Part shown: in pieces, positions 465-15,679 of the stretch
Numbering within the stretch: the stretch's first letter is position 1
Layout: every line of letters starts with the position of its first letter
DNA from: Rhodoplanes tepidamans
GTDB taxonomy: Bacteria > Pseudomonadota > Alphaproteobacteria > Rhizobiales > Xanthobacteraceae
Length of the DNA stretch: 64,000 nt
Reading direction: 5' to 3'
NCBI RefSeq assembly: GCF_030813915.1
Contig: NZ_JAUSUJ010000008.1
Span: forward strand, 124,001-188,000
The notes under the pieces: generated by a model
The model's database searches: none
The model's input: the letters and a program-made list of their open reading frames with translations, nothing else
What the model was told of the DNA's origin: nothing
Translations under genes and position numbers: made by a program

Positions 465-626
465 CCGGCCGGCGCCTCGCATGGCTGAGCCGGTCCGCCC
501 GCATGGTTGACGAAACGTTGCACCCAGGCCGGCAAGTTTTAGTCAACCGAAAACGGGGCTCTCATCGGAATCGGCTAGAACGGATGCACCTCGCTGTGCA
601 ACATGCGCGGCGCGACCGGATCGTTC

Positions 627-1943
627 ATGCACATTGATCAGCCCACTCTCTTTGCCGTGACTGCCTTCGCCGCGGCGATCAGCGGGCTGATGCTGCTGTT
701 CGGCTGGCTGCAGGACCGGTCGTCGGCGACGCTCGCCTGGTGGGGCGGCGGGCTGCTGCTGGTCGTCGGCGGCACCGGGCTGGTGGTGCTGCGCGGCGTC
801 ATCCCGGACGAGATCTCGATCGTGATCGGCAACGCCGTCCAGCTGTTCGGCTACGGCATGCTGTGGACCGGCGCCCGCACCTTCGAGGGGCGGCGGCCCC
901 GGATCGCGGTGCTGCTCGTCGTCTCTCTCGCCTGGATGGTGGCGTGCCAGTTCGACTTCTACTGGACCGACATGCCGCTGCGCATCCGGGTGTCGGCGAC
1001 GCTGATCTCCTCCTACCTGCTGCTGACCGCCGCGGAATATGCGCGGCCGAAGAATCCGGAGCTGGTGTCGCGCTGGCCGACCATCTTCATCCTGCTGCTG
1101 CAGGCCGGCGGCGTGCTGATCCGCATCCCGCTCGCCGAGAAGCTGGTGTTCCCGGCGCCCGAGAACTCGTTCACGGCGACCCTGGTGCCGCTCGGCGCCG
1201 CCGGACTGGTGCTGTTCTCCTTCTCGCTCGCCTTCCTGGTGATGGCGATGTCGAAGGAGCGGCTGGTGCTCGAGCACAAGCGCACCGCACTGGTCGATCC
1301 GCTCACCGGGGTGGCCAACCGGCGGGCCTTCTTCGAGCGCGGCGAGCGCATCCTGCGCCGCGGGCTGGCCGACGGCGACACCGCCGCGCTGCTGATGATC
1401 GACATCGACAAGTTCAAGCACGTCAACGACACCTTCGGCCACCAGGCGGGCGACCGGGTGCTGTGCGCCTTCTGCGACACCGCGGCCCGCGTGCTGCGGC
1501 CGACCGACGTGCTCGGCCGCACCGGCGGCGAGGAGTTCGCCTGCCTGCTGCCCGGCGCGACGCCGGCCGAGGCGGCCGCGGTGGCGGACCGGATCCGCCT
1601 CGAGTTCGAGCAGTGCCGGCTCGATCTCGGCGCGGTGCGCCCGACATCGACGGTCAGCATCGGGGTGGCGACCACGGTGGATGTCGGCGGCAGCCTCGCG
1701 GCCCTGATGGGCGCCGCCGACCGGGCCCTCTACCGGGCCAAGGCGAACGGCCGCAACCGGGTCGAATCGGTGGGCGCCCTGAAGGCCGGGGCCCTGTCCG
1801 GCCCGGCCGCCGACCACCCGGCGGCGCAGCCCCCGTGGGGCGCGGGGATGCGGCGCGACGACGCCCGGGCGGCCCCCGGCGCCCGGCCGCACGGCGGCGA
1901 CGCCGCCGACCCGGGCCGCCGCGACGAATCCGCCGTCGCCTGA
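627..1943 (+). CDS. Membrane-bound GGDEF diguanylate cyclase
   Basis: The first 200 residues hold about six hydrophobic helices, with no recognised ligand-binding motif, and act as a membrane sensor or anchor. The GGDEF domain starts near DPLTGVANRR. It contains the metal-binding MIDIDKFKHVND stretch, an RPTD I-site (product inhibition expected) and the active-site GGEEF at residues 300-304. It should synthesise cyclic di-GMP at the inner membrane. A Pro/Ala-rich tail of about 60 residues follows. I chose ATG 627 because an ATG at 603 has no ribosome site and adds eight poor residues. PilZ-type proteins elsewhere in the window are possible effectors, but no link is shown. Confidence 0.9.
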   Translation: MHIDQPTLFAVTAFAAAISGLMLLFGWLQDRSSATLAWWGGGLLLVVGGTGLVVLRGVIPDEISIVIGNAVQLFGYGMLWTGARTFEGRRPRIAVLLVVSLAWMVACQFDFYWTDMPLRIRVSATLISSYLLLTAAEYARPKNPELVSRWPTIFILLLQAGGVLIRIPLAEKLVFPAPENSFTATLVPLGAAGLVLFSFSLAFLVMAMSKERLVLEHKRTALVDPLTGVANRRAFFERGERILRRGLADGDTAALLMIDIDKFKHVNDTFGHQAGDRVLCAFCDTAARVLRPTDVLGRTGGEEFACLLPGATPAEAAAVADRIRLEFEQCRLDLGAVRPTSTVSIGVATTVDVGGSLAALMGAADRALYRAKANGRNRVESVGALKAGALSGPAADHPAAQPPWGAGMRRDDARAAPGARPHGGDAADPGRRDESAVA

Positions 1944-2086: not shown

Positions 2087-2163
2087 GCGCTCGTAGCTCA
2101 GCCGGATAGAGCATCAGACTTCGAATCTGAGGGTCGGGAGTTCGAATCTCTCCGAGCGCGCCA
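2087..2163 (+). tRNA. tRNA-Arg (anticodon TCG)
   Basis: A full cloverleaf can be drawn. The acceptor stem is GCGCTCG (2087-2093) with CGAGCGC (2153-2159), discriminator G2160 and an encoded CCA at 2161-2163. The D-stem is GCTC/GAGC. The anticodon stem TCAGA/TCTGA (2114-2118, 2126-2130) carries the loop CTTCGAA, so the anticodon is TCG (2121-2123), which reads CGA. The T-arm contains TTCGAAT. A serine recombinase pseudogene reads into its 3' half from the opposite strand, so this tRNA has served as an integration site. Confidence 0.96.
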
Positions 2164-3353
2164 TTTCGGTACAAGGCTGGGAACGCCAAAACCCGCCGTT
2201 TTCCCGCCTGCGACGGCGACCAGGGTGCGCAGCAGTTCGCTTTTCGACCCCATGATCCGAACGTCCTTCGCGTCGCCCTCGACGCGCCGCGCGAACGCGC
2301 GGACATAGTCGCGGCGGGAGCCTCCGCTCTCGGTCCGCACGCGCCTGCGGGCCTGCCTGGCGAAGGTCGCGAGTGCCGGCGGGGTTGATGACAGGCCCCG
2401 CGCGGGAAGCGGCTTCCTCGGCCCGCTCCGCGTCGAGGCGGGCTTGGTCGCGGACGGCCTCGAGTTCGGCGATTCGATCCTCCAACAGCGGGTCGGTCAG
2501 GACGGCGATGCCGCTTTCGATCGCGTCGTAAAGGCGGCCGAGCTTCGCCTCGGCCTCGGCCGCGCACTTGCGCAGCGCGGCGATGTGGGCGGCCCGACGT
2601 TCCGCCCGCTCCTCCCGGCGGTCGAGCACCGTCGCCAGGATCGCTTCGAGGCGGACGGGCTGCAAAAGCCGGCGCTCGATGTGGTCGGCGACGAGGGTGT
2701 CGGGCTTCCGCGGCGCCGTCAGGGCCGGGCTGCGAGTTTCGAGCAGGGTCTGAACGGCCTCGAAGTCTGCCGGGTCAATGATCGGCGGCACGACCATTTC
2801 CACGACATCGGTCTCCGGCTTGCGCTCGCGCGTCTTCCGGAACTTGGCGTTGAACCGGTGCCGGCCGACATCGGTCGTGCGGGTCAGCACCTGGTGGACC
2901 GCCGCGATGCCCCGGCGAACGCCGTCGCGGGTCAGGATGCCGGCGGCGTTCGGGTGGTTGGTGATCGACTTCACCCCCATCGGCCCGGAGTTGCCGTCAC
3001 CCTCGCCGGCGAGGCGGAAGATCAGCCGCACGGTTTCGGCCCGGATGGGGTCGATGTCCAAAGTCTTCTCGGTCCGTTTGCCTCACCGCTCGCCGGTCTC
3101 GGCGATGCGGTAGCCGATCGGCGGTCGCGACCCGTTCCAGAACCCTTGGCGCGCGTTCTCCGTCGTCCCCCGCGGCGTGTGCTTGGCGTTCTCCTTGGAC
3201 TGGCACTCGTCGAGCAGCGTCATGATCTGCCGGATCATGTTGCTCATCGGATCGTCGCCGAGCTCCTGGGTGACGGAGATCAGCCGCACACCGTTCTTCG
3301 CGAGCCGGCGGACGTGGAACTCGAGCTGGAACTGGTCGCGGAAAGACCGCCTG
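2098..3353 (-). pseudogene. Large serine recombinase, multiply broken, integrated at tRNA-Arg
   Basis: The minus strand reads as the middle and C-terminal parts of a phage-type large serine recombinase: FRDQFQLEFHVRRLAKNG, then FWNGSRPPIGYRI, then the recombinase domain (TTDVGRHRFN, VPPIIDPADFEAVQTLL) and a coiled-coil region (RREERAERRAAHIAALRK). Four lesions are visible. The N-terminal resolvase domain with the catalytic serine is absent upstream of about 3353. A TGA (3083-3085) interrupts the frame after AETGER, and the frame continues as GKRTEKTLDIDP. The zinc-ribbon segment is missing near 2710. A frameshift lies near 2380. The C-terminus ARRDSNSRPSDSKSDALSG is translated from the tRNA gene itself and stops at 2098. 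It cannot encode an active enzyme. Confidence 0.85.
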
Positions 3354-3575
3354 ACGCAGGACCCGTTCTCCGGTCATCTCTTTGCTTTCCGCGACGAGAC
3401 GGCATTGGTGCGGACGATCCCGTTCTGGGACGGGAACGTCCTTTGCCTGATCACCAAACGGATAGACCAGGGAGGCTTCGTGCGGCCGGAGATGGCGGGG
3501 ATCGACGGCCCGACGCGCTCACATCGGCGCACCTCGCGATGGTGATCGATGACATCGGCGCTCTCCTGACCGTGT
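3354..3575 (+). pseudogene. IS66-family TnpB (Orf2) fragment, frameshifted
   Basis: The plus strand from 3360 encodes DPFSGHLFAFRDE, then IPFWDGNVLCLITKRIDQ and GGFVRPE. This matches the conserved core of the IS66 accessory protein TnpB (DPFSGH, WDG-LCL-KR, G-F-WP in the family). After about 3490 the frame is lost, but a second frame gives LTSAHLAMVIDD, which corresponds to the family's LTPAQLAMLLEG. The N-terminus, and tnpA and tnpC, are missing. It directly abuts the broken recombinase, and the IS insertion may be what removed the recombinase N-terminus. It is a relic, not a functional element. Confidence 0.7.
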
Positions 3576-4055
3576 TTGGAAGTCTGCGATCGCGGGTTTC
3601 CGCTGGAGACCCGGTGCAGAAACAAGCGAGGATTCTCCTTCGAGACGGCGGCAGCGCGTATCCTGGAACACGCGGCTCGATCTCGATGTGTTCGCCGAAG
3701 ACCGCCGCCATCTCTTTCCGGAGATCACCTCGATCCGATGAACCGTCCCCGCAGGCTCGAGCATAGGGTCGACTTCAAACACGAGCCGATCTCCGATTCA
3801 GACTCAGATCTTCAGGATCGATGGACTCCGTCCTCACGCCCCTCGCAGAAGGTGGGGCCAGAACGGCGATTTCCCTGCTCCGGCTAATACTGACTCGATG
3901 GGGTCGCGACAGCGCAACACACAGAGTTGATCGAGTCCGACGTCGGAGGCTCGCGGCTCCGGGCGCGTCCATGATTGCAATCCAGCGGTGTTTCGATGAC
4001 CCTGCACCGAGCTTCGGCAGTGGCCCGGGCGAGACGCGAAGCGGGGAGTGTGCGC
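3576..4055. other. Intergenic region with no recognisable gene
   Basis: This 480-base stretch between the IS66 relic and the sulfatase shows no open frame I can assign on either strand. Its sequence looks like decayed mobile DNA (short broken frames). It must hold the sulfatase promoter. A GGGAG ribosome site lies just before the sulfatase ATG at 4056. Confidence 0.5.
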
Positions 4056-5681
4056 ATGAGCGGAAATCTGTGGCGCTTGGCGACGGCAGCGACGACGTTG
4101 TTGACTCTCTCGTCGACCATAGGCGGCGCATCGGCGCAGCAGCCGGCCCCGCAACAGCGGCTCCAACAGCCGCAGGCGCAGCAACAACTGCCGCAGGCCC
4201 AACAGCAGCGGCCGAACATTCTCGTCATCTGGGGCGACGACATCGGGACCTGGAACATCAGTCACAACAACCGTGGCATGATGGGCTATCAGACGCCGAA
4301 CATCGACCGTATCGCGAAAGAAGGCATAGCCTTCACCGACTACTACGGCCAGCAGAGCTGTACCGCGGGGCGCGCCGCTTTCATCGGCGGCGCCGTGCCG
4401 GTGCGCACCGGCATGACGAAGGTCGGCTTGCCGGGCGCCAAGGAAGGCTGGCAGAAGAGCGATCCCACCATCGCCGCGCTGCTCAAGGCGCAAGGCTACG
4501 CCACCGGCCAGTTCGGCAAGAACCACTTCGGCGATCGCGACGAACATCTGCCGACGATGCACGGGTTCGACGAGTTCTTCGGCAACCTCTATCACCTCAA
4601 CGCCGAGGAGGAGCCGGAGAACCCGGACTATCCGAAGGATCCGGAATTCCGGAAAAAGTTCGGGCCGCGCGGCGTGCTGAAGACCAAAGCGGACGGCAAG
4701 GGCGGCCAGACCATCGAAGACACTGGTCCGCTCACCCGCAAGCGCATGGAGACGGTGGACGAGGAGACACTCGCGGCGGCGCTCGACTTCATCGACCGCC
4801 AGCACAAGGAGGGCAAGCCGTTCTTCGTGTGGTGGAACGCAACGCGCATGCATTTCCGCACGCATTTGAAAGCGGAGAGCCGCGGTGCTTCCGGACAGGA
4901 CGAATATGGCGACGGCATGGTCGAGCACGACCGTCACGTCGGCGCGCTGCTGGAGAAGCTCGACGACCTCGGCATCGCCAACAACACGGTCGTCTATTAC
5001 TCGACCGATAATGGTCCGCATTTCAACACCTGGCCGGACGCCGGCAACACGCCGTTCCGCAGCGAGAAGAACTCCAACTGGGAGGGTGCCTATCGCGTCC
5101 CGGCTTTCGCGCGCTGGCCAGGCAAATGGCAGGCGGGAGTCACGCTGAACGGCATCGTCGCGCACGAGGATTGGATGCCGACCTTCCTGGCAGCGGCCGG
5201 CATGCCCGACCTGAAGGACCGTCTCAAGAAGGGCGACGCGTTCGCCGGCCGGCAGTACCGCTTTTATATCGACGGCTACGACATGAACGACTACCTCGCC
5301 GGGAAAGCGAAGCAGTCGCCACGCCGGGAGTTCTGGTACGTCAATGACGAAGGCCAGATCGTCGCCGCCCGTCACGACGACTGGAAGGTCGTGTTCCTGG
5401 AGAACCGCGGGGTCGCGTTCGGCGTATGGCGCGAGCCTTTCGTCGAGCTGCGGGTCCCGCTTCTGTTCAACTTGCGGCGCGACCCGTTCGAGAAAGCGCA
5501 ACAAAACTCCAACACCTACAATGACTGGATGATCGACCGCGCGTTCGCGCTGGTGCCGATCCAGACCCTGGCGACGCAGTTCCTGCTGACCATGAAGGAC
5601 TTCCCGCCGAGCCAGTCGCCCGGCGCGTTCAACCTCAGCAAGATCGAGGAGCAGCTCCGCAGCGGCGCGAGCGGAAATTGA
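4056..5681 (+). CDS. Exported arylsulfatase
   Basis: This is a type I sulfatase that hydrolyses sulfate esters. It starts with a signal peptide (MSGNLWRLATAAT... cleaved near GGASA) and a Gln/Pro-rich linker to about residue 54, so it works in the periplasm or outside. The fold begins at RPNILVIWGDDIG with metal-binding aspartates at residues 61-62. The formylglycine motif is C102-TAGR, the C-x-A-x-R variant, so a formylglycine-generating enzyme elsewhere is needed. Later metal-site motifs include YYSTDNGPH. ATG 4056 was chosen over upstream starts because GGGAG precedes it and the signal peptide begins there. It is first in a module with a HAD phosphatase and an octaheme cytochrome. The substrate is unknown. 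Confidence 0.92.
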   Translation: MSGNLWRLATAATTLLTLSSTIGGASAQQPAPQQRLQQPQAQQQLPQAQQQRPNILVIWGDDIGTWNISHNNRGMMGYQTPNIDRIAKEGIAFTDYYGQQSCTAGRAAFIGGAVPVRTGMTKVGLPGAKEGWQKSDPTIAALLKAQGYATGQFGKNHFGDRDEHLPTMHGFDEFFGNLYHLNAEEEPENPDYPKDPEFRKKFGPRGVLKTKADGKGGQTIEDTGPLTRKRMETVDEETLAAALDFIDRQHKEGKPFFVWWNATRMHFRTHLKAESRGASGQDEYGDGMVEHDRHVGALLEKLDDLGIANNTVVYYSTDNGPHFNTWPDAGNTPFRSEKNSNWEGAYRVPAFARWPGKWQAGVTLNGIVAHEDWMPTFLAAAGMPDLKDRLKKGDAFAGRQYRFYIDGYDMNDYLAGKAKQSPRREFWYVNDEGQIVAARHDDWKVVFLENRGVAFGVWREPFVELRVPLLFNLRRDPFEKAQQNSNTYNDWMIDRAFALVPIQTLATQFLLTMKDFPPSQSPGAFNLSKIEEQLRSGASGN

Positions 5682-5758
5682 GGACGTGGCGGGCGGGGAT
5701 CGGATCCGGTCCCCGCCCGTCGAGCGATGCGGCGGGATACGGCTTGTCGGCGCATGGC

Positions 5759-6763
5759 ATGAAACAGGCGTTCTCGATCATCGTGGCCGCGGGCGTCGCG
5801 CTGCTGGCTGCGCTTTCGCTCGGCTGTGCTCTTGCGCAAGCGGACCCGCTGCCATCCTGGACCGATGGCACGGCGAAGGCTGCGATCGTCGACTTCGTCG
5901 CTCGTGCGACGACTCCAGGCAGCGCGGACCATGTCGCCCCTGCAGAGCGTGTCGCCGTGTTCGACAATGACGGCACGCTGTGGGCGGAAAAGCCGGTCTA
6001 TTTCCAGTTCATGTTCGCGATCGACAGGGTGCGGGCGCTCGCCGCGCAGAATCCGGAATGGAAGGTGAAGCAGCCTTTCAAGGCGGCGATCGAGGGTGAT
6101 GTCGACACGCTCGCGGCGTCCGGCGAGAAAGGCCTCGTCGAGCTGATCATGGCCACGCATACGGGCGTCACGACAGAGGCGTTCGGCGAGACGGTCGCCG
6201 ACTGGATCGCCGCCGCGCGGCATCCGCGGTTCGAGCGCCCCTACACCGAGCTCGCCTATCGGCCGATGCTCGAGCTGCTCGCGCTCCTGCGGGCGAACGG
6301 CTTCAAGACGTATATCGTGTCGGGCGGCGGCATCGAGTTCATGCGCGTGTGGACCGATCGCGTCTACGGCGTGCCGCCCGAGCAGGTGATCGGCTCCTCG
6401 ATCGTGACGCGGTTCGACGTCGAGAACGGCAAGCCCGTGCTGGTGCGCGAGGACAAGATCGATTTCGTCGACGACAAGGCGGGCAAGCCGGTCGGGATCC
6501 ACAAGTTCATCGGCCGGCGCCCGATCTTCGCCTTCGGCAATTCCGACGGCGACCTGCAGATGCTGCAATGGACCGCGGCAGGCGACGGGCCGCGCTTCAT
6601 GGGCCTCGTGCATCACACCGACGCCGAGCGCGAATGGGCCTATGATCGGGACTCGGCGGTCGGACGGCTCGACAAGGCGCTCGACGAAGCGCGGGCGAAG
6701 GGCTGGACGGTGATCGACATGAAGCGGGATTGGAAGCGGGTGTTCGCGTTCGAGCCGCAGTGA
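5759..6763 (+). CDS. Exported HAD-family hydrolase (phosphatase-like)
   Basis: A 334-residue protein with an N-terminal signal peptide (MKQAFSIIVAAGVALLAAL, cut near ALA-QA). The HAD motifs are in order: motif I FDNDGT (D69 nucleophile, D71), motif II SGGG (S188) and motif IV GNSDGD (260-265). It should hydrolyse a phosphate ester in the periplasm. The family resembles the phosphoserine-phosphatase branch of HAD hydrolases, but the substrate is unknown. I chose ATG 5759 because the signal peptide starts there; the upstream frame adds 27 unlikely residues. It lies 77 bases behind the sulfatase and one base before the cytochrome gene, so the three are probably co-transcribed. Confidence 0.85.
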   Translation: MKQAFSIIVAAGVALLAALSLGCALAQADPLPSWTDGTAKAAIVDFVARATTPGSADHVAPAERVAVFDNDGTLWAEKPVYFQFMFAIDRVRALAAQNPEWKVKQPFKAAIEGDVDTLAASGEKGLVELIMATHTGVTTEAFGETVADWIAAARHPRFERPYTELAYRPMLELLALLRANGFKTYIVSGGGIEFMRVWTDRVYGVPPEQVIGSSIVTRFDVENGKPVLVREDKIDFVDDKAGKPVGIHKFIGRRPIFAFGNSDGDLQMLQWTAAGDGPRFMGLVHHTDAEREWAYDRDSAVGRLDKALDEARAKGWTVIDMKRDWKRVFAFEPQ

Positions 6764-6764
6764 C

Positions 6765-9206
6765 ATGGACCGGCGGTGCAGCGGTGAGGCTCCGTCCGCC
6801 ACGCGGCCGACCGGCGATGTCGGCCGGAGGCCGGCCTCGCGGTATCGCGCCGGAGTCGAGCCGGCGCTGGCCGGGCTGCTCGGCGTCGCCCTGACGCTCC
6901 TCCTGATTGCGACGCATGTCGGCCCGGCTCGGCGAGACGGGCCTCGTTCCTGGCTGGCGGTGCGCGCCGAACCGACGCCCGCGGCTGCGGCGACCGGCGG
7001 GCCGGCCCATGTCGGCGAGTCGGTCTGCCGCGCGTGCCATGCCGGCGAGGCCGCTGCGTGGACGTCCTCCGACCATGCCCGCGCGATGGCGCATGCGAGC
7101 GAGTCGACGGTGCTCGGCGACTTCAACGACGCGCGCTTCACTTATGGTGACGTGACCAGTGTTTTTTTCCGGCGTGACGGCAAGTATTTCGTGCGCACCG
7201 ATGGGCCGGCCGGCGACCTCCAGGACTACGAGATCACGTTCACGTTCGGGGTCGAGCCGCTGCAGCAGTATCTGATCGCGTTGCCGGGCGGACGATTGCA
7301 GGCGCTATCGATCGCCTGGGATTCGCGCGCGAAGGAGCAGGGCGGCCGACGCTGGTTTCATCTCCATCCGGGCGAAAAGGTCGACCATCGCGATCCCCTG
7401 CACTGGACCGGCCTGCAGCAGAACTGGAACTACATGTGCGCGGAATGCCATTCCACTGGTCTGCGCCGCAATTACGATCCCGGATCGAAGACCTACGCGA
7501 CCACCTTCTCCGCGATCGACGTGTCCTGCGAGTCCTGCCACGGCCCCGGCGCACGGCATGTCGCCTGGGCGAAGCGCGAGCCGGGTTGGGAGGCGATCGA
7601 TGCGCAGGCCAAGGGCCTGATGATTCGTCTCGACGAGCGGCGCGGCGTCACGTGGGCGATCGATCCGCGGACCGGCAGCGCCGCCCGCAGCAAGCCGCGC
7701 CAGACGACTCGCGAGATAGAGACCTGCGCGCTCTGCCATGCGCGGCGCGCGCCGATCTGGGCGACGATCGAGCCGGGCGCACCGATCGGCGACAGCCACC
7801 GCGTCGCGCTGCTGGACGAAGGACTGTACTTTCCCGACGGGCAGAGTCGCGACGAGGTCTACGAGTACGGCTCGTTTCTGCAGAGCAAGATGTTCGCCGC
7901 GGGCGTGACCTGCAGCGACTGTCACGACCCGCACAGCCTGACGCTGCGCGCGAGCGGGAATGCCGTCTGCGTGCAGTGCCATGCACCGGAGAGGTTCGAG
8001 TCGGCCAGTCACCACCGGCACCGGCAGGGCTCGACCGCGGCGCAATGCGTGGCCTGCCACATGCCGGCGCGGACCTACATGGTCGTCGATCCGCGCCGTG
8101 ACCACGGCTTCCGGATTCCGCGTCCCGATCAGAGCGCCGCCCTGGGAACGCCCGACGCCTGCACGGCCTGCCACGCCGACAAGACCTCGCAATGGGCGGC
8201 CAAGCAGATCAGGGCGTGGCACGGCGCGCCGAGGCCCGGGTTCATTCGGTTCGGCGACGTGCTGCACGCCGGCTCGCGTGGCGCGCCTGGCGCGCGGGCG
8301 TCGCTGCTCGCGCTGGCGCAGGATCGGTCGCATCCCGCGATCGCGCGGGCGAGCGCGCTGGCGCGGCTGGACCGTATCGCCGATCCGGCCGCGCTCGCCG
8401 CCGTGCGCATGCTGCTGCGCGATTCCGATCCCCTGGTCAGACGCGCCGCGGCCGCAGCCTACACCGGCGCACCGACGCGGGCGCGCCGCGACGTGCTGTC
8501 TTTGCTCGACGACCCCGTCCGCGACGTGCGGCTCGAAGCGGCGCGCCAGGTCGCCGGCCTGCCGGCGGCGCTGATGAGCGCCGACGAGCAGAAGCAGCGC
8601 GATCGTGGCATCGAGGAATATGTCGCCTCCCTGCGCAGCAACGCCGACCGACCGGAAGCGCACCACAATCTCGGGCTGCTGCTCATGGATGTCGGCCGCC
8701 CGGCGGAGGCCGAATCGGAGCTGACGGCGGCGCTGACGCTCGATCCGTCCTTCGTGCCCGCCGCGGTCACGCTCGCCGACCTCCTTCGCGCGCTCGGACG
8801 CGACGCCGAGGCGGAACCTCTGCTGCGCGGGATGATCGAGAGGCAGCCGAACGCCGCGTCGCCGCATCACGCGCTGGGGTTGTGGCTCGTGCGCGCCAAC
8901 CGGCGCGCCGAAGCCATCGATGCGCTGAAACGCGCCGCCGATCTCGCGCCCGACGATCCACGGATGGCCTATGTCTACGCCGTCGCGCTCTCCGCGACCG
9001 ATCGCGCGAAGGCGCTCGCGACGCTCCGGGAGTCGCTGGCGCGGCATCCTCATGACCGCGAGACGCTGTCCGGGCTCGCAGCCTTCTCGCGCGACGCCGG
9101 CGCCCGCGACGACGCCCTGCACTACGCCGAGACACTGGCCGCCCTCGAGCCGGACGATCCGAGCGTGCGGGCATTCGTCAGGCAAATGCGGGGGGGCCCG
9201 AGATAG
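6765..9206 (+). CDS. Octaheme cytochrome c with HEAT and TPR repeats
   Basis: An 813-residue exported protein with a hydrophobic anchor near residues 33-50. Eight CxxCH haem motifs start at residues 88, 225, 255, 321, 383, 402, 428 and 466, all within the first 470 residues. Behind them come HEAT-like helical repeats (about 500-615; SHPAIARASALARL, DPLVRRAAAAAYTG) and then TPR units (about 630-810; EAHHNLGLLLMDVGRPAEAE). The haem part resembles multihaem cytochromes related to the c554/NrfA fold; the repeats suggest a partner-binding scaffold. It is likely periplasmic and membrane-tethered. It follows the HAD gene by a single base. The redox partner and reaction are unknown, and the pairing with a sulfatase and a phosphatase is unusual. 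Confidence 0.88.
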   Translation: MDRRCSGEAPSATRPTGDVGRRPASRYRAGVEPALAGLLGVALTLLLIATHVGPARRDGPRSWLAVRAEPTPAAAATGGPAHVGESVCRACHAGEAAAWTSSDHARAMAHASESTVLGDFNDARFTYGDVTSVFFRRDGKYFVRTDGPAGDLQDYEITFTFGVEPLQQYLIALPGGRLQALSIAWDSRAKEQGGRRWFHLHPGEKVDHRDPLHWTGLQQNWNYMCAECHSTGLRRNYDPGSKTYATTFSAIDVSCESCHGPGARHVAWAKREPGWEAIDAQAKGLMIRLDERRGVTWAIDPRTGSAARSKPRQTTREIETCALCHARRAPIWATIEPGAPIGDSHRVALLDEGLYFPDGQSRDEVYEYGSFLQSKMFAAGVTCSDCHDPHSLTLRASGNAVCVQCHAPERFESASHHRHRQGSTAAQCVACHMPARTYMVVDPRRDHGFRIPRPDQSAALGTPDACTACHADKTSQWAAKQIRAWHGAPRPGFIRFGDVLHAGSRGAPGARASLLALAQDRSHPAIARASALARLDRIADPAALAAVRMLLRDSDPLVRRAAAAAYTGAPTRARRDVLSLLDDPVRDVRLEAARQVAGLPAALMSADEQKQRDRGIEEYVASLRSNADRPEAHHNLGLLLMDVGRPAEAESELTAALTLDPSFVPAAVTLADLLRALGRDAEAEPLLRGMIERQPNAASPHHALGLWLVRANRRAEAIDALKRAADLAPDDPRMAYVYAVALSATDRAKALATLRESLARHPHDRETLSGLAAFSRDAGARDDALHYAETLAALEPDDPSVRAFVRQMRGGPR

Positions 9207-10406
9207 TCGGCTCGGAGCCGAGGCGGACGAATACGATCTCGATGCGCCGTCGCCGCTTTCGGGCGCCCGGGACGGGACTATGCGGCGTCGGCGGACGACC
9301 TCGTCGCATCGATCGTCGCGGCACGCGCGTTCCTGCTCCTCCCAGCCCTCGGGTTTCGGACCCATTCGTGGGCTTCGGCGGGCGACCGGTGGATCAGCGG
9401 ACTATTGAGGCCGAGGGCCTCGGCGCGGCTCTGCAACGGATCGATGTCGATCATCCTCGTTCTCCGTGAGGGCCTCGTTGGCTCGAGGCCATGGGGTGGA
9501 CCGGGATGTCGTGCGCGGTGACGAGGGCGGCAGCGTGACGGCGACCGGCGGGGTCGCGTGGCGGTGCTCACGGCGGCGCTCGAGCGCGAGAGGCTTGTCC
9601 GCGCAAATCTGCAGTTACAGGAAACAGTCGCTCGCGGAGTTCGGAGAATGATCGGACAACGGTGGGCACAAACGACGGTTCCGACGTCGTAGCCAGCATT
9701 GTCTCATAGCGCGAGGGCGAACGAATGATGCCCATCTTCATCGACCGTGGCCCGCCAGCTCATTCAAAGCCTTGTGCCGACAACGGTCGTCCTGAAGCGC
9801 TCCCCCGGTCGGGCTCGGGCGCGGTTCCGTCCCATGCGCCGACCACCTCCTTGCGACCGAACGGGTCCGGCGAGACCCGAAGCCCGCGCGACGCAGCCGC
9901 GCCGTGCAGGGCCGGGTGGCGTGCGGTCCGGCGCGGCGTCGCACCGGCGGCGAGGCTCTGAGCGGTCCGGAGCCCGCGAATGCCTTCGTGGCGCTTTAGC
10001 GGTTGGTGCGCGGCCGCAAGCTGCTCCGTCAAATCCCGCGATCGGCGAGCGCCGCCGATGTCGAGAAAGATCGCCGAACCGGGGCGATAATCAACGGAAC
10101 GGGATGTCGAAGTTGGCGCCGAAACGAGCATCCTGTGCCCCGGAGCCGTGATCGCGGAGAAGGCTGTTCGCCCAAGCCGTCGGCGGCGCGACGGCTGGTC
10201 CGGGGTCGCAGCCGGCCGCGGCCGGGACCGCGAGCGCTGCTGATTTCTCACGACGACACATCGGGATATCTCGAACAGAACGGGCCTTCTCCGACCCGGT
10301 GCGGCGAGAGAAGAAGCCGATCGTTTCCGCCGCGAGAAGGCATGGCACTTCTCTTGCTAGATCACGTCGGCGTCCCGATAGTCACGTGACCGAACGGAGA
10401 ACCCCC
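9207..10406. other. 1.2-kb region without a convincing gene
   Basis: No frame here shows a known domain, a good ribosome site or consistent coding character. The longest candidates (minus 9278-9571 and 9760-10251, plus 10003-10389) are Arg/Pro/Ala-rich, as expected for chance frames in G+C-rich DNA. The region may mark the right edge of the island that starts at tRNA-Arg, but I saw no duplicate of the tRNA 3' end. It must also contain the promoter of the following ABC operon. Confidence 0.45.
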
Positions 10407-11129
10407 GTGTCTCTTCCAGTCACCATCGCCGGGCTGTCGCACCGTTACGGCCGTCGCCTGGTTCTCGACGGCATCGATCTGACGGTCGCGGCCGGCGAAC
10501 GCGTCGCGCTCCTCGGTGCCTCGGGCGCCGGCAAGTCCACGCTCCTGCAGATCGTCGCCGGACTGGCGAAGCCGAGCGACGGCGTCGTCACGATCGGCGG
10601 ACGCCGGGTCGACGCTCCCCTGCCCGGCGTCACCATGATGCTGCAGCGGCCGGCCCTGCTGCCGTGGGCGACGGTGCGGCAGAACGTCGAGCTCGGCCTG
10701 CGCTTCTCCGGCCTGGCGCGGCGCGATCCCGACCTCGCGCGGATGCGCGTCAACACGCTGCTCGCCCAGATCGGGCTCGGCGATCGCGGCGACGCGCGAC
10801 CGACCGAGCTGTCCGGCGGCCAGCAGCAGCGCGTGGCGCTCGCCCGCGCCCTCGCCCCGAAGCCGGACGTGCTGCTGCTCGACGAGCCCTTCTCGGCGCT
10901 CGACATGGGCACCCGGGCGGCGCTGCGGGCCGACGTGCTGCGGCTCGCCACCGACGCCGGCACCACCCTGATCCTCGTGAGTCACGACCTGGCGGATGCC
11001 GAAGCCCTGTGCACGCGGGCCGTGCTGCTGTCCGGCCATCCGGGCCGGGTGGCCGAGGATCTCGCGATCGAGAACGGCATCGACGAGGCGACGCGCGGCC
11101 GGGTGGCCGCTCGCCTCGACGCGGCGTGA
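10407..11129 (+). CDS. ABC transporter ATPase, nitrate/sulfonate/taurine type
   Basis: A 240-residue ATPase of the SsuB/TauB/NrtD group. It contains Walker A GASGAGKST, a Q-loop (MLQRPALLPW), the signature LSGGQQQR, Walker B VLLLDEP and the switch histidine in LVSHD. It powers import with the binding protein (11171) and permease (12415) downstream. The start is taken at GTG 10407 because GGAGA sits six bases upstream and the protein then begins at the usual place; upstream extensions are Arg-rich and unsupported. It is first in a five-gene operon that also carries an OsmC-like protein and an acyl-CoA-dehydrogenase-like enzyme. The substrate cannot be read from the sequence. Confidence 0.9.
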   Translation: MSLPVTIAGLSHRYGRRLVLDGIDLTVAAGERVALLGASGAGKSTLLQIVAGLAKPSDGVVTIGGRRVDAPLPGVTMMLQRPALLPWATVRQNVELGLRFSGLARRDPDLARMRVNTLLAQIGLGDRGDARPTELSGGQQQRVALARALAPKPDVLLLDEPFSALDMGTRAALRADVLRLATDAGTTLILVSHDLADAEALCTRAVLLSGHPGRVAEDLAIENGIDEATRGRVAARLDAA

Positions 11130-11170
11130 CGCGACCATCCCCCGAACGACCACCCGGACCGGAGCCCCCG

Positions 11171-12418
11171 ATGCACGACGACGACGACGCGAGCGCCGAT
11201 CCGCCGCTCGCCCTCTCCCACGACTGGGTCCGGGCCGACTGGACCCGCCGCGCCACGCTCGACGCGCTGGCGCGCGGCGGGCTCGGCGCGATGCTGGCCG
11301 CGTCCGGCATCGCCGGCACGGCGCACGCCTCCACGGACGAGGTGGTGCGCATCGGCTACCTGCCGATCACCGACGCGGCGGCGCTGCTGGTCGCGCATGC
11401 GCAGGGCCTGTTCGAGGCCGAGGGCCTGAAGGTCGAGCCGCCGACGCCGGTGCGCAGCTGGTCGGCGCTGGTCGAGGGCTTCGCGGCCGGCCGCTTCAAC
11501 GTCGTCCACTTCCTCAAGCCCATCCCGGTGTGGATGCGCTACAACAACAAGTTCCCGGTGAAGCTGCTCGCCTGGGCCCACACCAACGGCTCCGGCCTCG
11601 TCGTCGGCAGCCACACCACGGTCCGCGAGTTCAAGGATCTGGGCGGCACCCGCATCGCCGTGCCGTTCTGGTACTCGATGCACAACGTGGTGCTGCAGTT
11701 CGGCCTGCGGCAGGTCGGGCTCACGCCGGTGATCAAGCCGGACGGCGCGCCCGTGGCGCCCGGCGAGGTGGCGCTGCAGATCCTGCCGCCGCCCGAGATG
11801 CCGGCCGCGCTCGCGGCGCGCAAGATCGACGGCTACATCGTCGCCGAGCCGTTCAACGCGCTCGGCGAGCTCAAGGTCGGCGCCCGCATGCTGCGCTTCA
11901 CCGGCGACATCTGGAAGAACCACCCCTGCTGCGTCGTCGCCGTGCACGAGCGCGACACGCAGGAGCGCCCGGCCTGGACCCAGAAGATCACCGACGCGAT
12001 CGTCGCCGCGCAGGTCTTCGCCTCCAAGAACAAGGCCGAGGTGGCGAAGCTCATCTCCAAGGACGGCAAGGGCTACCTGCCGGTGCCGGGCGAGGTGGTG
12101 CTGAAGGCGATGACCGACTACGGCCCCGCCTACGACGAGTCGGGCGCGGTCCGTCACCGCGACTGGAAGTCGGGCCGCATCGACTTCCAGCCGTGGCCCT
12201 ACCCGTCGGCGACGAAGCTGATCGTCCAGGCGATGCAGCAGACCGTGGTGGAAGGCGACACCGCGTTCCTGAAGGCGCTCGATCCGGAGTTCGTGGCGAA
12301 GGACCTCTACGATCTCCGCTTCGTCGAGGCGGCGCTGAAGAAGCATCCGGGCTGGATCGAGGACGCCAGCGTCGACCGCGCGAGCCCGTTCGTCCGCGAA
12401 GAGGTGCTGACGCTGTGA
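11171..12418 (+). CDS. Tat-exported ABC substrate-binding protein, NMT1/CmpA-like
   Basis: A 415-residue periplasmic binding protein. The N-terminus has a twin-arginine signal (TRRATLDALARGG, then a hydrophobic stretch ending GTAHA near residue 55). The mature part starts VRIGYLPITDAAALLVA, typical of the NMT1/SsuA/CmpA superfamily. LLAWAHTNGSGLVVG and VAEPFNALGE resemble nitrate/bicarbonate-type receptors (NrtA/CmpA) more than classic SsuA. The start ATG 11171 follows GGAGCCCCCG. Its stop TGA overlaps the permease start codon. Export by Tat suggests folding before export, perhaps with a bound cofactor, but none is visible. The ligand is unknown. Confidence 0.88.
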   Translation: MHDDDDASADPPLALSHDWVRADWTRRATLDALARGGLGAMLAASGIAGTAHASTDEVVRIGYLPITDAAALLVAHAQGLFEAEGLKVEPPTPVRSWSALVEGFAAGRFNVVHFLKPIPVWMRYNNKFPVKLLAWAHTNGSGLVVGSHTTVREFKDLGGTRIAVPFWYSMHNVVLQFGLRQVGLTPVIKPDGAPVAPGEVALQILPPPEMPAALAARKIDGYIVAEPFNALGELKVGARMLRFTGDIWKNHPCCVVAVHERDTQERPAWTQKITDAIVAAQVFASKNKAEVAKLISKDGKGYLPVPGEVVLKAMTDYGPAYDESGAVRHRDWKSGRIDFQPWPYPSATKLIVQAMQQTVVEGDTAFLKALDPEFVAKDLYDLRFVEAALKKHPGWIEDASVDRASPFVREEVLTL

Positions 12419-13248
12419 CCATCACGATCGCGGAGGAGCGCAGCCGCTGGCGTCGCGCCGGGCTGTCGCTCGACCAGCTCGGCTTCTATCTGCGCTGGGC
12501 GGCGCCGCCGGCGGCCGGCATCGCCGGCCTGCTCGCCCTGTGGTGGGTCGGCGGCTGGATCATCGCCGGCAACCCGCGGCTCTCGGCGTTCACCGGCTTC
12601 GCACCGGCGCCGGCGCTCGCCGCCTTCGCCGATCTGATCGTCTCGGGCGACGCCTGGAAGGCCGCCGCCCCCAGCCTGTCGCGGGTGCTGCAGGGGCTGT
12701 TCGTCGCCGCGCTGATCGGCATCCCGGTCGGCATCGCGCTCGGGCTCCTGCCGCTGCTCGAAAGGGCCGTGCAGCTGCCGTTCCAGATCCTCCGGATGGT
12801 CAGCCCGCTGTCGTGGATGCCGGTCGCCGTGCTCGCCTTCCCGAGCTGGAACGGCGCCATCGTGTTCCTGATCGCGGCGGCGGCGATCTGGCCGGTCGTG
12901 TTCGCCACCGCGGCCGGCGTGAAGCGCATCGATCCGGCCTGGATCGCGGTCGGCCGCACGCTCGGCGGCCACGGCCTCGCGCTGGTGCGGGTCGTCGTCG
13001 TGCGCGCGGTCGCGCCCGACATCCTCACCGGCTTCCGGCTCGCCCTCGGCGTCGCCTGGATCGTGCTGGTGCCGGCCGAGTTCCTCGGCGTGACCTCCGG
13101 CCTCGGCTACGCCATCAACGACGCGCGCGACACGCTCGAATACGACCGCCTCGCCGCCCTGGTGCTGCTGATCGGCCTGATCGGCTTCGCCCTCGACGCG
13201 CTGGCCGCCGCCCTGCTCGCCCGCGCCCGCTGGACCCCGACGGCCTGA
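12415..13248 (+). CDS. ABC transporter permease, SsuC/NrtB type
   Basis: A 277-residue inner-membrane permease with about six helices and the cytoplasmic coupling loop VGRTLGGHGLALVRVVV, which matches the EAA motif of the BPD_transp_1 family. It forms the channel for the ATPase at 10407 and the binding protein at 11171. The start codon is GTG 12415, which overlaps the preceding TGA (12416-12418), so the two are translationally coupled. The binding protein gene lies between ATPase and permease, an order often seen in nitrate/sulfonate-type importers. Confidence 0.9.
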   Translation: MTITIAEERSRWRRAGLSLDQLGFYLRWAAPPAAGIAGLLALWWVGGWIIAGNPRLSAFTGFAPAPALAAFADLIVSGDAWKAAAPSLSRVLQGLFVAALIGIPVGIALGLLPLLERAVQLPFQILRMVSPLSWMPVAVLAFPSWNGAIVFLIAAAAIWPVVFATAAGVKRIDPAWIAVGRTLGGHGLALVRVVVVRAVAPDILTGFRLALGVAWIVLVPAEFLGVTSGLGYAINDARDTLEYDRLAALVLLIGLIGFALDALAAALLARARWTPTA

Positions 13249-13310
13249 CCGCCGTCTTCACCCGCAAGACAGCCCTGCAAGCCCCCTGCAAGACACCACG
13301 AGGAGCCCCG

Positions 13311-13859
13311 ATGAGCACCGTCGTCGCCGTCAAGACCACGCCGGCTCCGTTCGAGCCGATCGACGCCGAGCGCCTGAAGGCGCTGGGCGACAAGGGCCGG
13401 TCCGACCCGTCGGCGGTCCGCACCGTCAAGGTGCGCACCGTCGCCGAGGGCAAGCGCTTCCGCCACCTCAACTACGTGCGGGATCTCGCCGCCCACATCG
13501 TCGACGAGCCGCCGGGGCTGCTCGGCGACGACACCGCGCCGAACCCGACCGAGGCGCTTCTCGCCGCGCTCGGCTCCTGCGTCGCGGTCGGCCTGCAGGC
13601 CAACGCGGTCGCCCGCGGCTGGACCATCCGCGCCATCGCGGTCGAGCTGGAGGGCGACATCAACATCACCTCGGTGTGGGGCACGGGCGACCTCTCGCCC
13701 AAGCCGGTCGGCCTCACCGCGATCCGGCTCAAGGCGCATCTCGACGTCGACGGCGCCACCGACGCCGAGATCGAGGAGGTGATCGCCCACGCGGCGGCCT
13801 GGTCGCCGGTGCTCGGCACCGTGAAGAACCCGGTCCCGGTCGAGGTCGTGCGCGCATGA
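13311..13859 (+). CDS. OsmC family protein
   Basis: A 182-residue protein of the OsmC/Ohr family. TAPNPTEALLAALGSCVAVGL contains the conserved family cysteine (LGSC), and AAAWSPVLGTVKNPV is the usual C-terminal motif. Members reduce organic hydroperoxides, or bind acyl or thiol compounds, in the cytoplasm. The second family cysteine (normally in CPV or SPV near the end) is Ser here (WSPV), so peroxidase chemistry may be impaired. The ATG follows GAGGAGCCCCG. Its stop overlaps the next start (ATGA). Placement in a transport operon with an ACAD-like flavoprotein suggests a part in processing the imported compound. Confidence 0.85.
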   Translation: MSTVVAVKTTPAPFEPIDAERLKALGDKGRSDPSAVRTVKVRTVAEGKRFRHLNYVRDLAAHIVDEPPGLLGDDTAPNPTEALLAALGSCVAVGLQANAVARGWTIRAIAVELEGDINITSVWGTGDLSPKPVGLTAIRLKAHLDVDGATDAEIEEVIAHAAAWSPVLGTVKNPVPVEVVRA

Positions 13860-14980
13860 GCATGGGGGTCGCGAGCACGGAGATCGAGATCGCCGCGCCG
13901 GCCCCGCCGGCGGCCGCCCCCCGCTCCGTCGCCGAGATCGTGGCTGGCGGCCTCGCGCCGCTCGCCCGCGCCGTCGACGAGGACGGGCTCTACCCCGAGC
14001 CGGTGATGCGCGAGCTCGGTGCCGCCGGCGCCTATGCGCACCACACCGGCGCGAACCCGGCCGGCGGCTTGATCGCCGCCGTCGCCGACATGGCGACGGC
14101 CGGGGCGGCCTGCGGCTCCACCGCCTTCTGCATGTGGTGCCAGGACGCCCTCGCCTGGTACCTGGCCCGCTCCGAGAACCCGGCCCCGCGGCAGACCTGG
14201 CTCGCCGCCGTGGCGGCGGGCCGGACGCTCGGCGGCACCGGCCTGTCGAACCCGATGAAGACGTTCTCCCGCCTCGACCGGCTGGCCTTCTCGGGCGTGC
14301 GGGCGCCGGGCGGCTGGCGCGTGTCCGGCCGGCTGCCATGGGTCTCCAATCTCGGGCCGGACCATCTGTTCGCCTCGATCTTTTCGGTGGAGGACGGCGA
14401 CGGCCGCATCATGGCGGTGTTCGACTGCGCAACGCCCGGCGTGTCGCTGGTCGAGGTCGGGCCGTTCCTGGCGCTCGAAGGCACCCGCACCTATGCGGTG
14501 CTGCTGCGCGACGTGTTCGTGCCGGACGATGCGGTGATCTCCGAGGACGCCGCCCGCTTCGTCCCGACCATCCGCCAGGGCTTCGTCCTGCTGCAGTTCG
14601 GCATGGCGCTGGGGGCGGCGCGGGCCGCCGCGGCGCTGATGCGCAAGGACAGCCGGCTCCTCGGCGACAAGCCGGCCGCCGTGCTGCCGCTCGACGCCGA
14701 CACCATCGAGGCGCGGGCCGAGGCGCTCGCCGAGACGGCCGCCGCCCTCGCGGCCCACCACGACGATCCCGGCCGCGAGGCGTTCCTCGCCGTCCTGAAG
14801 GCGCGGCTGGAAGGCTCCTGGCTGGCGCTCGAAGCCACCCAGGCGGCCGTGCTGCAGCTCGGCGCGCGCGGCTACATGCGCCGCTCCGAGGTGCATCGCC
14901 GCCAGCGCGAGGCACAGTTCGTCGCCATCGTCACGCCCTCGGTGAAGCACATCCTGACGGAGCTCTCGCGCGGGGCGTGA
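13856..14980 (+). CDS. Acyl-CoA dehydrogenase-like flavoprotein
   Basis: A 374-residue protein of the acyl-CoA dehydrogenase superfamily. There is an N-terminal helical domain (to about 110), a central beta domain (TGLSNPM..., WVSNLGPDHLF) and a C-terminal helical domain (LGARGYMRRSEVHRRQRE near 340). In similar loci, relatives such as SfnB or DszC-type enzymes are FMN- or FAD-dependent and act on organosulfur compounds. That role is an inference from context; I see no catalytic glutamate I could place with confidence. Its start overlaps the OsmC stop. A short G+C hairpin (14970-14992) right after the stop may help termination. Confidence 0.8.
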   Translation: MSMGVASTEIEIAAPAPPAAAPRSVAEIVAGGLAPLARAVDEDGLYPEPVMRELGAAGAYAHHTGANPAGGLIAAVADMATAGAACGSTAFCMWCQDALAWYLARSENPAPRQTWLAAVAAGRTLGGTGLSNPMKTFSRLDRLAFSGVRAPGGWRVSGRLPWVSNLGPDHLFASIFSVEDGDGRIMAVFDCATPGVSLVEVGPFLALEGTRTYAVLLRDVFVPDDAVISEDAARFVPTIRQGFVLLQFGMALGAARAAAALMRKDSRLLGDKPAAVLPLDADTIEARAEALAETAAALAAHHDDPGREAFLAVLKARLEGSWLALEATQAAVLQLGARGYMRRSEVHRRQREAQFVAIVTPSVKHILTELSRGA

Positions 14981-15142
14981 GGCCCGCCCCGCCGTGACGA
15001 TCCTGCGTCGCGGTCGGGCGCGCGACGCCGCGGCCGAGGCTTCGCCCACCGGTCCCGACGGGTCCCGTCTCGAGGCGGCCCGGCCCACGGCCGCCCCCCG
15101 GCCGCGCCGTTCCAACGATCGGCGCGCCGTCGCGGGCGATCG

Positions 15143-15679
15143 TCAATGCTGCTCGCGCCCCAGCCAGGGCGCCAGATCCGTGATGGCGGCGTCGACGCGG
15201 GCGACGATCTCCGGCGCGACCAGCTCTCCCTGGGCGAAGTGCCGCTCCGACGCGTAGACGGCCGTCGCCACCGTGTGGGCCGCGAAGAAGCCGAACAGCG
15301 GACGCATCGCGTGCTCGACGACGAGCGCGTGCCGATCGCCGCCCCCGGATGCGGCGATCAGGATCGGCTTGCGGGCCAGGCAGTCGGGCCGCAGCAGGTC
15401 GATGACGTGCTTGAACATACCGGAGTAGGATCCCTTGTAGACGGGACTGGCGAACACGACCGCATTGGCGCCCTCGATCTCGTTCAGGATCGCCTGTGCC
15501 TCCGGCGAGAGGTCGTCGCGCTGCAGCGCGATCCCGGCCGGCGTCACGATGTCGAGGAGATCGTAGATCGGCCCGGTCACGCCGTAACGCGCCCCGACCT
15601 GCCGCATGACGTACTCGGTGAGGTTGCGCGTCTTGGAGGGTCGCTGGTAGTTGCCGACGAAGGCGACGATGCGGGACAT
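15143..15679 (-). CDS. NAD(P)H-dependent FMN reductase
   Basis: A 178-residue flavodoxin-like reductase. It begins IVAFVGNYQRPSKTRNL, the FMN phosphate-binding region of SsuE/MsuE-type enzymes, and continues with VVFASPVYKGSYSGMFKHVID, the conserved flavin-contact segment. Such enzymes supply free FMNH2 to luciferase-like monooxygenases. It is the last gene of the ribose-type ABC operon on the minus strand, 21 bases after the second permease. A luciferase-like monooxygenase lies nearby at 21695. Together these suggest a two-component flavin monooxygenase. Confidence 0.9.
   Translation of the reverse strand: MSRIVAFVGNYQRPSKTRNLTEYVMRQVGARYGVTGPIYDLLDIVTPAGIALQRDDLSPEAQAILNEIEGANAVVFASPVYKGSYSGMFKHVIDLLRPDCLARKPILIAASGGGDRHALVVEHAMRPLFGFFAAHTVATAVYASERHFAQGELVAPEIVARVDAAITDLAPWLGREQH

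Follow-up and report, generated by a model that had tools for sequence, protein, structure and literature searches.

Why should a sulfatase, a HAD-type phosphatase and a cytochrome with eight haems be encoded side by side? The question is raised by a stretch of 64,000 nucleotides from Rhodoplanes tepidamans (contig NZ_JAUSUJ010000008.1, positions 124,001 to 188,000), called the window below. The three genes follow one another in the order just given, separated by 77 bases and by 1 base (Table 1). A first-pass annotation had placed and spaced them in this way, which the reading frames confirm. It had also described the trio as a periplasmic module of three exported proteins, proposed that breakdown of a sulfated and phosphorylated substrate is coupled to electron transfer outside the cytoplasm, and suspected island cargo.

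The trio is a real, conserved and mobile module. The finding of interest is broader, namely that genes of this cytochrome family are associated with sulfatase genes; coupling to one sulfated and phosphorylated substrate is unproven. A cytochrome family tied to several kinds of sulfatase suggests that sulfatase biology includes a redox step so far left unassigned. The association might bear on the activation of exported sulfatases where no known maturase is encoded. G and L numbers are used below as handles for genomes and loci.

Linkage of the cytochrome to sulfatases

Cytochrome-type matches outside the window were found at 19 places in 15 genomes, many matches to the TPR part alone having been dropped. 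At 12 of these places a match to the sulfatase family PF00884 lies within 5 kb, at distances of 0.4-3.1 kb. The number of linked places expected from sulfatase numbers and genome sizes is 0.37 (Poisson-binomial P about 7e-17). Counted per genome, the linkage holds in 10 of 15 (P about 4e-15). Because the null model assumes random positions and independent places, both values are a guide only. Among annotated plasmids, 11 of 12 cytochrome loci selected by hand have a sulfatase within 5 kb, the miss being Alloyangia. Among the hosts are methanotrophs, rhizobia, roseobacters and Vibrio, and also P. carrageenovora, which degrades carrageenan.

When the neighbours of 31 cytochrome loci were grouped into families common to at least three loci (spurious antisense frames ignored, each family named from one member), the sulfatase cluster appeared at 23 loci. 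No other neighbour family comes near this count; the HAD phosphatase is found at 7 loci, the window included, with the L105 copy about 7 kb away. In a class draw of 385 genomes, PF00884 matches at E<=1e-30 occur in all nine genomes that have the cytochrome, against 201 of the 385 overall.

The linked sulfatases are of several types. Twenty were inspected, and they measure about 470-630 or 750-900 amino acids, some counted from stop to stop. Their common feature is the formylglycine motif, which reads CTAGR, CTAAR, CTPGR, CTPSR, CSPSR, CSPTR or CGPSR. All 20 have an N terminus resembling a signal or an anchor by eye, and they stand in both orientations relative to the cytochrome. The idea that the cytochrome is specific to CxAxR sulfatases was rejected, since the linked enzymes also have CTPGR, CTPSR, CSPSR, CSPTR and CGPSR.

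The sulfatase of the window combines a PF00884 match with the formylglycine motif C102-T-A-G-R (4359-4373), which by sequence places it among the S1 formylglycine sulfatases. It has a Sec-like signal; signal segments and motifs of the trio proteins were assessed by eye. The protein would act as a sulfate-ester hydrolase outside the cytoplasm. Used as a query, it finds only itself in its own genome at E<=1e-3. That genome has a second PF00884 match, on contig C5 (E 3.5e-16).

The octahaem cytochrome

The cytochrome has eight CXXCH motifs, at residues 88, 225, 255, 321, 383, 402, 428 and 466. In 10,000 shuffles of its residues the mean number of such motifs was 0.016 and the maximum was 2. About residues 31-52 form a putative uncleaved membrane anchor. 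All three proteins have signal or anchor segments: the sulfatase and the HAD phosphatase Sec-like signals, the cytochrome this anchor.

A family of 28 members was compared, of which the other 27 share 38-59% identity with the window protein over the core. All eight motifs are invariant in the 28. Seven histidines outside the motifs are conserved (104, 213, 265, 390, 416, 419 and 447, two of them kept in 27 of 28), as are Met376 and Met439, both invariant. The histidines are candidate distal haem ligands, judging from their conservation. As there are seven of them for eight haems, one haem may be ligated by methionine or may be open, a choice that sequence cannot decide.

Profile comparison matches the core best to PDB 6i5b, presumably OcwA, an electrode-reducing cytochrome. 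Next come cytochrome cf (6qvm, E 7.4e-12) and MccA (4rkm, E 3.8e-8), and a weak match to NrfA. Against 6i5b three stretches pass, and by sequence the haem core belongs to the NrfA/HAO/OcwA multihaem superfamily. It resembles OcwA-type and NrfA-type proteins in its haem stretches at either end of the domain, in a CXXCHMP motif and in a following histidine. PF02335 (cytochrome c552) also matches the members in L094, L098 and L101, although only L098 exceeds the Pfam cut-off. The window family differs from both types in its eight CXXCH motifs, its additional HEAT-TPR arm and its linkage to sulfatases. No NCBIfam model matches the window protein above its cut-off save a short CXXCH domain. A model for a UshA-like (seleno)protein matches all 28 members at E<=0.01, in the window member over the C-terminal part and far below the cut-off. 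This may be a further case in which an ester hydrolase is paired with haem.

Could the cytochrome itself be an octahaem enzyme that reduces or oxidises an oxyanion of sulfur or nitrogen and merely shares a niche with the sulfatase? The distant matches to MccA and NrfA and the possibly open haem would suit such an enzyme. On the other hand, Met376 or Met439 could ligate the eighth haem, all eight motifs are of the CXXCH kind, and no oxyanion pathway family is found among the recurrent neighbours. An enzyme of this sort is thus very improbable. Two particular candidates were rejected. NrfA, the ammonia-forming nitrite reductase, is defined by five haems and a full-length family match, whereas the window protein has eight CXXCH motifs and its matches are partial and weak. 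MccA, a sulfite reductase, is an octahaem protein with a CX15CH haem site; here all eight sites are CXXCH, and the best stretch spans only profile positions 7-57.

The arm behind the core is likely to serve protein-protein contact. TPR repeats follow the haem core in all six homologues scanned and HEAT repeats in four (they are absent from L101 and L107). HEAT_2 falls under the Pfam cut-off in the window protein and exceeds it in L082, L094 and L105.

The trio as a mobile module

A search for the three gene families across genomes shows that the trio is kept elsewhere. The order sulfatase, HAD phosphatase, cytochrome is found in Rhizobium johnstonii pRL11, Sinorhizobium meliloti pSymA and Ensifer canadensis. 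In G066 and on a plasmid of Pseudoalteromonas shioyasakiensis the three genes are together in rearranged form, with the cytochrome of G066 divergent from the sulfatase-HAD pair. The first-pass annotation had held that a trio confined to one genome would be no module; since the arrangement recurs, that objection fails. Across the three annotated Rhizobiaceae trios, identity to the window proteins is 32-34% for the sulfatase, 62-65% for the HAD phosphatase and 38-39% for the cytochrome. Given the low value for the sulfatase, its type differs between trios.

The HAD and cytochrome genes lie within 600 bases of each other in all 16 plasmid records listed for both proteins. At least 16 records are common to both lists, among those listed of 146 records for the cytochrome and 216 for the HAD phosphatase. 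All 16 belong to Rhizobium or Sinorhizobium and so are not independent events. The two genes also adjoin in further S. meliloti plasmids. A scan of genome contigs gave 10 HAD loci; a sulfatase is near in seven, and a gene with at least three CXXCH motifs in none. In the class draw the cytochrome and the HAD phosphatase were each found in nine genomes, and both in three (G000, G066 and G125, unlinked in G125).

The window's phosphatase carries the nucleophile motif D69-N-D71-G-T (5963-5977). Together with a PF12710 match above cut-off, this assigns it to the HAD phosphatases, while TIGR01488 (class IB) stays below its cut-off. A likely homologue is SMa1682 of S. meliloti, named a nonspecific acid phosphatase and given among the genes raised in a phbC phaR mutant in the part of the source consulted (PMC12542648). 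The homology is probable from adjoining gene number and name, used because the records compared for pSymA (strains 2011 and 1021) lack annotation. As a separate observation, at G125:C1:1408989-1411144 a short fragment of the FGE family lies about 1 kb away from a HAD homologue with one in-frame stop. This looks like a decaying sulfatase-associated locus.

Mobility is also supported by the genomic setting. The segment with the trio lies between a tRNA-Arg gene and an ABC transporter cluster, and G001 of the same genus has collinear flanks (DNA identity 87% for GGDEF genes, 95% for the tRNA and 87-88% for the ABC cluster). The distance from tRNA to ABC gene is 2.95 kb in G001 against 8.14 kb in the window, and the intervening DNA of G001 has no match there. 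G004 shares the left flank (GGDEF genes and tRNA-Arg) and then continues with different DNA. The trio segment is therefore absent from the matching tRNA-Arg genes of G001 and G004, and the view of it as island cargo at a variable tRNA-Arg site is supported. The only matches to the cytochrome in G001, G002 and G003 are of the TPR type. No direct repeat of the tRNA-Arg end of at least 12 bases was found in 2176-12000, and the exact far border was not located.

Around the trio, a scan of 3400-10400 found no sigma-70-like promoter and two terminator-like sites where 3.6 are expected, none of them between the trio genes. Co-transcription of the trio is plausible from this layout.

Genes that move in this way need not work together. 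Periplasmic genes regulated by stress or nutrients could travel in company under shared regulation without any biochemical coupling. The presence of the trio on plasmids and in a variable segment accords with this, as does a related sensor-kinase gene near the cytochrome in L044, L094, L098 and L108. Passive hitch-hiking does not predict, however, that the association spans families and two classes, different sulfatase types and both orientations. Co-location without coupling is accordingly judged unlikely.

A proposed redox partner for exported sulfatases

The best explanation overall, to which we give an even chance, is a horizontally moved periplasmic operon whose cytochrome is a redox partner of the sulfatases. 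The exported sulfatase and acid phosphatase, judged by their families, would cleave extracytoplasmic sulfate and phosphate esters and so yield nutrients; the adjoining uptake genes of organosulfur type would fit such a release. The anchored haem chain would exchange electrons, in one direction or the other, with a periplasmic reaction linked to the sulfatase, and the HEAT-TPR arm may dock the protein partner. That the cytochrome is functionally coupled to sulfatases in some form is probable.

Which reaction could this be? The most likely single choice, though in itself still unlikely, is that the cytochrome oxidises the active-site cysteine to formylglycine or supports this step. It is favoured because every formylglycine sulfatase needs it, whatever the substrate. 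In its strongest form, for which the chances are slimmer, the cytochrome would join the two known maturases as a third activation factor; it would dock sulfatases just after export and accept the electrons of formylglycine formation, by a strategy like that of MauG. The island would then bring both its sulfatase and the means to mature it into a genome that has neither FGE nor anSME. Consistent with this, the genome of the window has one clear sulfatase, and no FGE profile match at E<=1e-30, no Cys-pair motif and no anSME above cut-off were found in it. Neither the HAD phosphatase nor the cytochrome matches FGE (PF03781) or anSME (TIGR03942), so any role in maturation would represent a new type. 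In Skermanella, an FGE occupies the slot of the cytochrome.

Several observations weigh against the redox-partner explanation or its maturation form. Seven of the 19 places have no PF00884 match within 5 kb. Four of these lie on contigs shorter than 8 kb: G005, G059 and two in G044, which probably represent a single gene divided between contigs. The three G066 matches are also on short contigs. The true misses with full flanks are G036, G175:C104, a split frame whose nearest sulfatase is 9.6 kb away, and G068, where the cytochrome match is partial. No sulfatase-cytochrome fusion occurs in the loci examined, and linkage alone cannot separate direct partnership from shared regulation. Most sulfatase genomes of the class draw are without such a cytochrome, which is therefore not generally required. 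The genome-level tests of the maturation idea gave no support. FGE (profile match of at least 247 bits) occurs in 2 of 9 cytochrome genomes and in 31 of 201 sulfatase genomes, and so is not rarer where the cytochrome is present. FGE is also encoded by the cytochrome genomes G068 and G081, and anSME by G004. Finally, 11 genomes have exported-type, motif-bearing sulfatases without FGE, anSME or this cytochrome.

These 11 genomes (G353, G085, G384, G206, G425, G289, G185, G111, G308, G077 and G368, with sulfatases at L159, L167-L171, L173, L174, L178, L181, L185-L187 and L195) come from 60 sulfatase regions inspected, 45 of them in genomes without FGE at 247 bits or more. Absence here means no anSME and no cytochrome at E<=1e-40, in searches that score only a few best candidates per genome. 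Export was judged by eye, several N termini being Tat-like or anchored, and G353 and G368 are only 83% complete. The maturase gap is thus wider than the cytochrome and not specific to it. Such sulfatases are a possible sign of an unrecognised maturation route, or of maturases missed by the searches. As a general substitute for FGE or anSME, the cytochrome is unsupported at genome level by the FGE counts and these 11 genomes.

A Cys pair, which we take to mark a true FGE, is present in 3 of the 33 stretches inspected among the FGE-family matches (G068, G081 and G417). G066 has a weaker FGE match without the pair (E 3.1e-35), and the sub-threshold match of G425 also has none. anSME was found in G004 only, among 45 genomes searched. 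There (G004:C8:90000-103000, L233) an anSME above cut-off lies beside a CTAGR sulfatase, and two large CSPTR sulfatases are in the same stretch.

Neighbouring genes and possible oxidation of a product

The coupled electron transfer proposed at first can be put in more definite form. The hydrolases would free an alcohol, a phenol or a sugar, and the electrons from its oxidation would pass through the cytochrome to respiration or to an outside acceptor. The resemblance of the haem core to PDB 6i5b would agree with this. So would the genes for 2Fe-2S and molybdopterin-binding proteins that follow the cytochrome in Methylosinus, the sugar-pathway genes that flank it in P. carrageenovora, and three recurrent families among the 31 loci. 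These are aldehyde dehydrogenase at four (L044, L083, L101, L102), short-chain dehydrogenase at four (L083, L084, L101, L106) and SMP-30/gluconolactonase at three (L045, L076, L101).

Against it, these families occur in a minority of loci, and none adjoins the trio of the window. By family they are NAD(P)-linked and cytoplasmic, and no exported cytochrome-linked dehydrogenase family is found among the neighbour clusters of at least three loci. With several sulfatase types involved, no common product is evident. Oxidation of a released product is on balance unlikely. The dehydrogenases near some loci would be compatible with the original idea of substrate-coupled transfer. The cytochrome stands next to sulfatases of several types, mostly with no HAD gene.

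Other recurrent neighbours are ABC ATPases of one type (seven loci) and sensor kinases (four). A cluster of MoxR/DUF58/VWA-type genes is seen at four (L045, L080, L082, L105). A type I phosphodiesterase family is also near the cytochrome at four (L045:3296-5050, L081, L082, L106), of which only the L045 copy was scanned.

Related systems

No description of the cytochrome-sulfatase association was found in the titles and abstract openings listed, which for some searches covered part of the matching papers. The nearest parallel found is in Verrucomicrobia, where, according to the part of the source consulted, sulfatase genes often neighbour genes for PSCyt (Planctomycete-specific cytochrome) domains of unknown function (PMC5615132). 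As here, these are c-type cytochrome genes without a known function beside sulfatase genes. By their descriptions the two are set apart, as PSCyt and PSD are separate domain families (PMC5615132), whereas the window family has a C554/C7-type multihaem core with TPR and occurs in Proteobacteria.

In Skermanella (L095 and L099) a sulfatase and a HAD gene of the same families stand in the same order as in the window. The difference is that an FGE gene takes the place of the cytochrome (L095:10906-11940, L099:10543-11577). The L095 protein carries the catalytic Cys pair; with its signal sequence it is probably periplasmic.

A looser analogy, drawn from descriptions alone, is MauG, a periplasmic dihaem c-type enzyme that builds the cofactor of a partner protein by oxidising residues of that protein. 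The strategy of a periplasmic haem enzyme is alike, but MauG is dihaem and has a different target.

The SMa1683/SMa1682 region of S. meliloti pSymA has the trio in the order of the window. It differs in the type of its sulfatase (CTPGR, 34% identity) and in the two-component genes upstream. In the parts of the sources consulted, the arylsulfatase SMa1683 appears at -5.0 in an expression table of a tolC mutant (PMC2912261), and SMa1686 is reported to be RirA-regulated (PMC4560400).

Features of the locus and its surroundings

Table 1. Features of the trio and of the segment that carries it, in window positions.
Feature	Position	Strand	Basis
Exported sulfatase, 541 aa	4056..5681	+	ATG 4056, stop 5679-5681; PF00884 E 3.9e-49; PDB 7aj0 E 2.8e-54
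Exported HAD-type acid phosphatase, 334 aa	5759..6763	+	ATG 5759, stop 6761-6763; PF12710 E 4.2e-14; PDB 4ovy E 2.4e-121
Membrane-anchored octahaem c-type cytochrome with HEAT and TPR, 813 aa	6765..9206	+	ATG 6765, stop 9204-9206; CXXCH count; Pfam Cytochrome_C554, C7, TPR
Octahaem core, residues 72-500	6978..8264	+	Profile match PDB 6i5b E 7.2e-22
HEAT and TPR repeat arm	8265..9203	+	HEAT_2 E 3.2e-4 (below cut-off); TPR_2 E 2.1e-14
Variable segment of 8.1 kb carrying the trio, between tRNA-Arg(tcg) and ABC ATPase gene	2166..10302		Flanks align to G001 at 87-95% DNA identity; segment without blastn match there
tRNA-Arg (tcg), probable integration site	2087..2163	+	Comparison with G001 and G004
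Serine recombinase remnant, one open piece	2117..3061	-	PF07508 E 2.6e-11; further pieces in other frames by eye
ABC ATPase, NMT1-like binding protein, permease, OsmC, acyl-CoA dehydrogenase-like, FMN reductase	10299..15679		Family matches

The genes that follow the segment appear to be of an organosulfur-uptake type. The region 10303-14984 is common to the window and G001, and the ABC cluster was not found in G004. As the NMT1-like binding protein is present in just two of six genomes of the genus, the cluster is no part of its core gene set.

The tRNA-Arg site itself is variable, its content differing between the window, G001 and G004. Tandem GGDEF genes precede the tRNA (window 603-1940, G000:C8:123163-124425), and a related pair is found in the same place in G001 and G004.

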